From positions 1,798,001 through 1,862,000 of the forward strand of contig NZ_CP095757.1 in assembly GCF_023093535.1 (NCBI RefSeq): 64,000 nucleotides of DNA. The letters run 5' to 3'. This stretch comes from Halovivax limisalsi (GTDB taxonomy: Archaea; Halobacteriota; Halobacteria; Halobacteriales; Natrialbaceae). Positions within the stretch are counted from its first letter, which is position 1; each line of letters begins with the position of its first letter. The position numbers and the translations under genes were made by a program. Shown here piece after piece: positions 36,066 through 37,368 of this stretch. The notes under the pieces are model-generated. The model was given only the letters and a program-made list of their open reading frames with translations. It was not told where the DNA came from and made no database searches.

Positions 36066-36614
36066 ATGGGTACACCTACGGCGACCCTGCACACCACCGC
36101 GGGCGATATCGAGATCGAACTCTACGCGGATCGAGCGCCCCGCACCGTGGAGAACTTCCTCAATCTGGCGGAACACGACCCCGCGGCCGACGCGGACCCC
36201 GCCCCGGACACGACCACCTGGGCCGACCCGGAGACCGGCGAGATACGCGGCGACTCGCTGTACGCGGGCACCGAGTTCCACCGCGTTATCGAGGGCTTCA
36301 TGGTCCAGGGCGGCGACCCGACCGGCACCGGTCGCGGCGGTCCCGGCTACGAGTTCGACGACGAGTTCCACGACGAGCTCCGCCACGACGGGCCCGGCAA
36401 ACTCTCGATGGCCAACTCCGGTCCCAACACCAACGGCTCGCAGTTCTTCATCACCCTCGACGCCCAGCCCCACCTCGACGACCGCCACGCCGTCTTCGGG
36501 GAGGTCACGGACGGCATGGACGTCGTCCGCGAGATCGGCGCCGTCGAGACCGACTCCAACGACAAGCCCACCGACGCGATCGAGATCGAATCCGTCACGG
36601 TCGATCGCGACTGA
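36066..36614 (+). CDS. Cyclophilin-type peptidyl-prolyl cis-trans isomerase
   Basis: A 182-residue single-domain cyclophilin that catalyses proline isomerisation during protein folding. Family motifs in order are [40 protein letters not shown] (active-site Arg and Gln), [19 protein letters not shown] and [13 protein letters not shown] short charged insert ([22 protein letters not shown]) after the first motif is a typical haloarchaeal expansion. No signal peptide, so it is cytoplasmic. It is isolated: the divergent AstE-type gene is about 210 bases to the left and a long structured intergenic region lies to the right. Confidence 0.93.
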
Positions 36615-37078
36615 GCGGCACGTACTGACCCCGGTTCGCGTTGCCACCCGAACCGATGCGCTGCTCCTGCTATGGGCGTCTCGTTTCAACCGCCAAGGGA
36701 AAAATTAATAACGTATGGCTTCGTACGTGTGATTGCCTGACGAGAGTCAGGGATGGGGGTCCGACGAAGCTGATGGGGGTCCGCTTCGTCGGCATTTTCT
36801 CTCTTCGAATCGACCGACGAGATGAATCGCTACATTGATTCTTAGTCGAAGGAACCGGTGTCGCGCGTAGCGCCCGGATACATAGACCAGTCGGGACAGT
36901 ACCGGGGTGAGTTCGAATGGAGTTTCCGATCACCGACCGTTCGTTGTACTCCTGTTGTCGGTCGGGCCGCTCACGATCGCGCTTCGAGGCGCAGCGAGAA
37001 CCGCGATCGCTCGCGGTCGGTGCGGACCGACACCGAAACGCACATCCACACCCCCCAGCAATCAACAGACGCGTCTGC
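36615..37078. other. Long intergenic region before tRNA-Leu
   Basis: 464 bases. It holds an isolated AT-rich box (36701-36711), two hairpins and a T-rich run (see the ncRNA entry), then 270 bases of ordinary sequence leading to the tRNA. The open frames in it, such as 36641-36838, are low-quality and cross the hairpins, so I call no gene. Confidence 0.5.
36733..36805 (+). ncRNA. Candidate small structured RNA
   Basis: A TATA-like AAAATTAATAA (36701-36711) predicts a start near 36733-36737. From there come hairpin 1 (CCTGA 36736-36740 / TCAGG 36747-36751, six-base loop) and hairpin 2 (ten perfect pairs, CCGACGAAGC 36761-36770 / GCTTCGTCGG 36783-36792, 12-base loop), then the pyrimidine-rich CATTTTCTCTCTT. 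The 12-mer GATGGGGGTCCG occurs twice (36752-36763 and 36772-36783), once before and once inside the loop of hairpin 2. The unit could equally be a terminator or a protein-binding site. Confidence 0.4.
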
Positions 37079-37163
37079 GCGAGGGTAGCCAAGCCAGGCC
37101 AACGGCGGTGGGCTTAAGACCCGCTCCCGTAGGGGTCCTTGGGTTCGAATCCCAACCCTCGCA
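37079..37163 (+). tRNA. tRNA-Leu (anticodon UAA)
   Basis: An 85-base type II tRNA. The acceptor stem pairs GCGAGGG with CCCTCGC, discriminator A. The anticodon stem GTGGG/CCCGC encloses CTTAAGA with anticodon TAA at 37115-37117. A long variable arm (TCCCGTAGGGGTCC) is typical of Leu. The T arm is TTGGG-TTCGAAT-CCCAA. CCA is not encoded and there is no intron. It is followed by a small hairpin (GTCTC 37168-37172 / GAGAC 37181-37185) that may help termination or processing. Confidence 0.96.
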
Positions 37164-37278
37164 TACCGTCTCGAACGTGAGAGACGTGTATGCGTGACGA
37201 GGGATTCGAATTATGCCAGTCGCAGCGCGAACGAAGTGAGCGACCGTCTGGAGGTGGTTCGAATCCCAACCCTCGCAT
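37142..37278 (+). repeat. Duplicated tRNA-Leu 3' end (possible attachment-site remnant)
   Basis: The 23-mer GGTTCGAATCCCAACCCTCGCAT occurs at 37142-37164 (tRNA T arm and acceptor 3' end) and again, identical, at 37256-37278, 114 bases apart. Each copy is followed by a hairpin (GTCTC/GAGAC after the first, GAGACAC/GTGTCTC at 37281-37306 after the second). The interval holds GCGCGAACGAAGTGAGCGAC, a member of the scattered haloarchaeal motif, and a piece resembling an inverted fragment of the tRNA end (GAGGGATTCGAA, about 37199-37210). Confidence 0.85.
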
Positions 37279-37368
37279 GCGAGACACGAACGTCGGTGAG
37301 TGTCTCGGTTCTGCGAACGGTGAGCGAAGCGAGCCGTGAGCATCCCGAATGTGGGGCACCCAAAACCA

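Follow-up and report, generated by a model that had tools for sequence, protein, structure and literature searches.

Does the gap between a cyclophilin gene and the tRNA-Leu(UAA) gene downstream of it hold a small RNA gene of its own, or do its hairpins belong to the transcript of a neighbour? The window, by which we mean the whole 64-kb stretch of DNA that was analysed, is a piece of a single-contig genome of 3.89 Mb from a haloarchaeon, probably a Halovivax (Natrialbaceae), and in it 464 nt separate the cyclophilin stop (36614) from the start of the tRNA (37079). A sequence-only reading had picked out about 100 bases of this gene-free gap as a candidate small RNA, on the strength of a TATA box, two hairpins, a duplicated 12-mer and a pyrimidine-rich tail, and all of these elements are present (Table 1).

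Table 1. Features of the cyclophilin to tRNA-Leu(UAA) interval, in window coordinates
Feature	Position	Strand	Basis or remark
Cyclophilin-type peptidyl-prolyl isomerase, upstream gene	36066..36614	+	PF00160, E 7e-52
Archaeal promoter, BRE-like GGGAAA and TATA-like AATTAATAA	36697..36711	+	Conserved in 9 genomes
Promoter-to-RNA spacer	36712..36731	+	37% mean identity, length fixed
Predicted small RNA, about 70 nt	36732..36804	+	Conserved block between unconserved flanks; both ends predicted
Hairpin 1, CCTGAC-GAGA-GTCAGG, 6 bp, GNRA-type tetraloop in the window	36736..36751	+	Pairs in 9/9 genomes
G-rich linker GATGGGGGT, first partial copy of the 12-mer	36752..36760	+	G-rich in 9/9 genomes
Hairpin 2, ten pairs, 36761-36770 with 36783-36792	36761..36792	+	Covariation
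Hairpin-2 loop GATGGGGGT, invariant, proposed functional site	36772..36780	+	Identical in 9/9 genomes
Pyrimidine-rich tail, possible terminator in this genus only	36793..36805	+	Terminator-like match 36769-36793, T-rich tail
tRNA-Leu(UAA), downstream gene	37079..37163	+	ARAGORN and Rfam RF00005

The element in the window and its relatives

Within the window, both hairpins are found, the second with the ten perfect pairs that had been described, and the pyrimidine-rich tail occupies about 36794-36805. The 12-mer GATGGGGGTCCG occurs at only two places in the 64 kb (36752-36763 and 36772-36783), compared with 0.06 matches on average in shuffles, none of 100 of which gave two. The duplication holds, but the first copy is only mostly single-stranded, since 3 nt of it belong to the 5' arm of hairpin 2. 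The RNA strand folds at -35.8 kcal/mol as against -26.9 for dinucleotide shuffles (z -2.9, with 2 of 200 shuffles equally good), which, being taken on one sequence alone, is moderate evidence; it is the relatives that decide.

In a DNA search of 61 genomes, each of the four genus-mates matched strongly, as did one genome of another genus, G018. Among 125 genomes of the family, a covariance model of six sequences (R1) added G028, G066 and G005, and a second model of nine sequences (R2) recovered nine carriers at E <= 1.7e-10 with one further match at 0.014. Strong matches are limited to these nine of the 125 family genomes and to four genera: the genus set is made up of five genomes (that of the window, G001, G002, G003 and G004), and the carriers outside it are G018, G028, G066 and G005. 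In 392 genomes of the order, which are a sample and were searched with the stricter filters of large searches, so that distant relatives may be missed, R2 returned eight of the nine carriers (G066 was not among the matches) and three matches at E 0.014-0.044, with no relative beyond the carriers at E below 0.01. A pattern combining hairpin 1 and the loop motif found the same eight carriers and no others in the 392 genomes, while its reversed control gave one match each in five other genomes. We take the weak matches of both models as chance: R1 gave 23 at E 0.07-0.9, the DNA around 12 of which was inspected by eye and held no promoter with loop motif, and those of R2 at E 0.014-0.044 fall in three distinct places, each under long open reading frames and without a promoter.

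The address of the element is constant, since all nine copies have the cyclophilin gene upstream and tRNA-Leu(UAA) downstream. Five of the 30 best cyclophilin loci in the family are carriers, and the other 25 lack TGGGGG within 350 nt downstream. The window's own genome has a single copy, with no convincing paralogue. A mobile repeat was considered and rejected: there is one strong copy per genome, with no plasmid or phage match and no exact-pattern match in viral contigs. In a tree of 34 cyclophilin sequences the carriers cluster, yet they do not form one side of a branch (four changes are needed), and because four of the five genus members have cyclophilins that lie near G030, apart from that of G002, the tree is unsafe as a species tree. 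Within the genus, the cyclophilin of G002 is shorter than those of the window, G001, G003 and G004 (36066-36614; L079-L083, L090). It is possible, to judge from these sequences, that the cyclophilin gene was replaced beside a conserved RNA gene.

Several other features of the surroundings were recorded. An AstE/AspA-type deacylase gene (PF24827; 34883-35869, minus strand) is divergent from the cyclophilin gene and lies near cyclophilin in 31 of the 34 compared loci, in carriers and non-carriers of the RNA alike. About 90 nt past tRNA-Leu, in window positions 37198-37290, there is a partial second tRNA 3' end (GGTTCGAATCCCAACCCTCGCATG), as if left by an integration or a duplication, and the tRNA gene of G001 (L006) has an incomplete copy of its 5' half in front of it. 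A block around CGAAACGC, with small variants, stands about 35-45 nt before mature tRNA-Leu(UAA) in all nine genomes (window 36969-37078, L048-L056); it has no obvious AT-rich TATA box and is probably the promoter of the tRNA. Carrier G066 has, on contig C2, a stretch that shares 96.5% identity with a plasmid of Halomontanus rarus.

Conserved promoter and covarying stem

Mean pairwise identity along a nine-sequence alignment (A6) rises and falls with the proposed parts. It is 83% for the promoter, against 30% for the sequence preceding it and 37% for the spacer that follows; hairpin 1 reaches 90%, the linker 65%, the two arms of hairpin 2 68% and 73%, and the hairpin-2 loop 89%, before a drop to 37% in the tail. 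Alignment columns 101-110, the hairpin-2 loop block, stand at 94%. An independent archaeal transcription unit would be expected to leave such a footprint: conservation in the promoter, none in a spacer whose length is nevertheless fixed, and conservation again in the block that follows. The TATA box of the sequence-only reading is part of this footprint; the TATA-like AATTAATAA lies at about 36704-36711 with an A/G-rich, BRE-like stretch 5' of it, and the promoter takes the form GAAATATTAAT in seven genomes, GAAAAATTAAT in the window and GAAATCTTCAT in G005. From the promoter end to CCTGAC, the distance is 26 nt in seven of the nine genomes and 27 nt in the other two. Archaeal transcription usually starts about 22-27 nt from the TATA box, and because of this the 5' end of the RNA would lie at about 36731-36735, just before hairpin 1. 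The 3' end would fall in the pyrimidine tail; however, the T-run that follows hairpin 2 occurs within the genus alone (it is absent in G018, G028, G066 and G005), so that the terminator-like ending is perhaps not a general feature and the position of the 3' end is tentative.

The pairing is conserved along with the promoter. For six sequences in a plain MAFFT alignment (A4), the structure that was scored had been specified beforehand by the analyst as two hairpins, and all 96 of its 96 cells are paired, with two-sided changes at five pairs; the covariation score is 0.325 as against 0.195 in shuffles, none of 500 reaching 0.325, and versions of the structure slid along the alignment drop to 0-0.112. 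On a nine-sequence alignment (A7) that was fitted to a covariance model, and is hence biased towards the structure, 97.9% of the 144 cells of both hairpins are paired, the score is 0.307 compared with 0.171 for shuffles (0 of 500 reach it), and hairpin 2 has 96.7% of its cells paired and two-sided compensatory changes at six of its ten pairs, which are the stem changes that the sequence-only reading had proposed looking for in related genomes. RNAalifold, unaided, recovers both helices. The unpaired cells in this register come from the most distant sequence, that of G005, which folds with a small internal irregularity. Hairpin 1 hardly varies (one pair goes from U-A to U-G in G018, and the rest is invariant), and it is thus better described as conserved than as proven by covariation.

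What is kept, then, is the promoter, both hairpins, the G-rich linker and the loop GATGGGGG, which is invariant across the nine genomes. The exact duplication of the 12-mer is kept in only two of them (the window and G002); its first copy is altered in G001, G003 and G004 and merely G-rich in the other genera. An intergenic region with its own promoter, conserved in sequence and at fixed spacing in nine genomes, and an RNA structure conserved through the covariation of hairpin 2 are the marks of a small RNA, and with the conserved promoter, the conserved hairpins and the covariation in relatives, the original proposal has gained support. From these comparisons, the element is very probably a real structured RNA gene, and we also think it fairly probable that it is transcribed independently, from its own conserved promoter, as a noncoding RNA of about 70 nt.

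Alternative explanations for the element

The neighbours offer two other accounts. The hairpins lie on the cyclophilin strand, 3' of its stop codon, and hairpin 2 together with TTTTCTCTC resembles a terminator, so that they might be read as a transcription terminator or a stabilising 3' UTR of the cyclophilin mRNA; the terminator is what the sequence-only reading had named as fatal to its proposal. We consider this very unlikely: a conserved promoter intervenes between the cyclophilin stop and the hairpins, at a fixed distance from hairpin 1, whereas the spacing from the cyclophilin stop differs among genomes by some 190 nt (worked out by hand); four genomes outside the genus keep the hairpins and lose the T-run, so hairpin and T-run are not maintained as the unit that an intrinsic terminator would form; and a terminator requires neither an invariant loop nor hairpin 1. 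An element transcribed from the conserved promoter could instead be the 5' leader or a cis-regulatory element of a downstream gene, either a 4Fe-4S ferredoxin or tRNA-Leu. The tRNA is indeed downstream in nine of nine genomes, and a ferredoxin-like gene on the same strand (PF13459 in the G005 copy) lies between RNA and tRNA in five of the nine (G002, G005, G018, G028 and G066), but the window, G001, G003 and G004 all keep the RNA and lack the ferredoxin gene at this place. The same downstream gene is therefore not close by throughout, as a leader would have it: by hand measurement, with start codons chosen by eye, the distance is about 126 to 570 nt to the ferredoxin start and 143 to 1130 nt to the tRNA, which also has an upstream conserved block of its own around CGAAACGC. 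The leader is in our view improbable, although less so than the terminator.

There are two further accounts. Hairpin 1 is a sequence-conserved inverted repeat just 3' of the promoter, as would suit a DNA operator, that is, inverted repeats bound by a repressor beside the promoter of another transcript; yet hairpin 2 alters its sequence while keeping its pairing, which recognition of DNA does not require, and the hairpin-1 palindrome is nearly unique in each genome (one place in six of the nine, two places in two, and no exact stem in G018), so an operator is highly improbable. A microprotein read from the ATG in the hairpin-2 loop (ATG GGG GTC) could account for the invariance of ATGGGGGT, and the window does have an open reading frame of 21 amino acids there. 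Across the carriers, however, the frames from this ATG run from 21 to 100 amino acids and share only their first residues outside the closest relatives, the changes in hairpin 2 track pairing and not codons, and linker indels of 1-2 nt shift the longer frames, which leaves the microprotein scarcely credible. Two classes of guide RNA were also rejected. C/D box RNAs carry the motifs C (RUGAUGA) and D (CUGA), and the window loop has CTGATGG where G005, G018, G028 and G066 have CGATGG (by eye). H/ACA RNAs have a 3' ACA/ANA box after a hairpin with an internal loop and kink-turn; here the 3' tail is unconserved (37%), and the ten-pair stem is without an internal loop in eight of nine folds (by eye).

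Proposed action and comparable RNAs

For the small RNA with its own promoter, which we prefer, a mode of action can be proposed from the arrangement of its parts. The BRE/TATA promoter would direct RNA polymerase to start a few bases before hairpin 1, and hairpin 1 would cap the 5' end of the RNA. Hairpin 2 would act as a long stem whose main job may be to display the invariant G-rich loop GAUGGGGG, backed by the single-stranded G-rich linker, and these G-rich segments would most likely be the working site, either pairing in trans with C-rich stretches of mRNAs or binding a protein. Contact between the loop and a partner is suggested because a long covarying stem presents an invariant loop beside a G-rich linker. 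Of the two routes, we tentatively favour base-pairing through the loop, which may well be how the RNA acts, over protein binding, which is a less likely option. The invariant loop can partly pair with itself (GAU/GUC around GGGG), and such pairing would shrink the exposed seed.

A search for targets gave no partner that could be named. In the nine genomes, 103 places match GACCCCCATC, the exact complement of the invariant loop, as against 42 for the backwards pattern, an excess that may be caused by codon usage. We compared 95 of the 103 places, the eight omitted being the RNA genes' own copies, with two own copies (L143 and L148) still among the 95; among these exact 10-nt complements in nine genomes there was no convincing conserved sense target. 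Five groups contain places from more than one genome that align at one position. The RNA gene itself makes up one of them, and three were rejected as antisense: a group within the RNA polymerase B subunit gene in six genomes, a pair at the start of a hydantoinase-like gene (L142 and L158; both genes were named by eye), and a group antisense to a small cysteine-rich open reading frame (L140, L168 and L176). L179 and L180 make up the fifth. A C-run upstream of tRNA-Leu that is partly complementary to the loop was rejected as well; it is present in the five genus members only and absent in G018, G028, G066 and G005.

At gathering scores, Rfam matched only tRNA in the window and nothing in the gap, and a permissive scan of the gap gave a single match outside the element (36977-37035), which lies on the opposite strand and scores well short of the gathering threshold. 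Among the open-access papers searched, we found none on this locus or on a cyclophilin-linked haloarchaeal sRNA. We therefore class the candidate provisionally as a new RNA family, an archaeal intergenic sRNA. Some bacterial sRNAs have repeated C-rich loops, such as LhrC of Listeria and the mycobacterial 6C RNA, and others, CsrB/RsmZ, titrate CsrA; the present RNA is like all of these in being short, with a conserved base-run motif in loop and linker, and unlike them in that its motif is G-rich, it is archaeal, and it has one firm loop copy only. Closer to home, it resembles sRNA132 and s479 of Haloferax volcanii, which are described as short and intergenic. For s479, a 9-nt interaction region is predicted, and the RNA lies between a CRISPR locus and the cas genes and is proposed to be Cascade-bound (PMC8155600), whereas the present RNA adjoins cyclophilin. 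For sRNA154 of Methanosarcina mazei, a stable structure is described with two loops that contact targets, conserved across related species (PMC5867862); the present RNA is similar in its stable two-loop structure and its conservation among related species, but it comes from another clade and sits in another genome context.

It is also conceivable, though rather unlikely, that this is a hitherto undescribed, clade-specific archaeal regulatory RNA whose invariant G-rich loop, together with the linker, serves as a general sponge or seed for an RNA-binding protein or for many C-rich mRNAs, in which case it would be an archaeal counterpart of the bacterial protein-titrating or C-rich-loop sRNAs. 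To our knowledge, few archaeal sRNAs are backed by evolutionary covariation, and many are known from transcript lists alone. The present RNA combines a promoter and a defined structure with an invariant loop, and it keeps a fixed genomic address across nine species. Some of the carriers, if they are Halovivax, are cultured, so transcript mapping and deletion would be directly feasible, and the RNA could serve as a clean example of partner choice, be it RNA or protein, by a small archaeal RNA.
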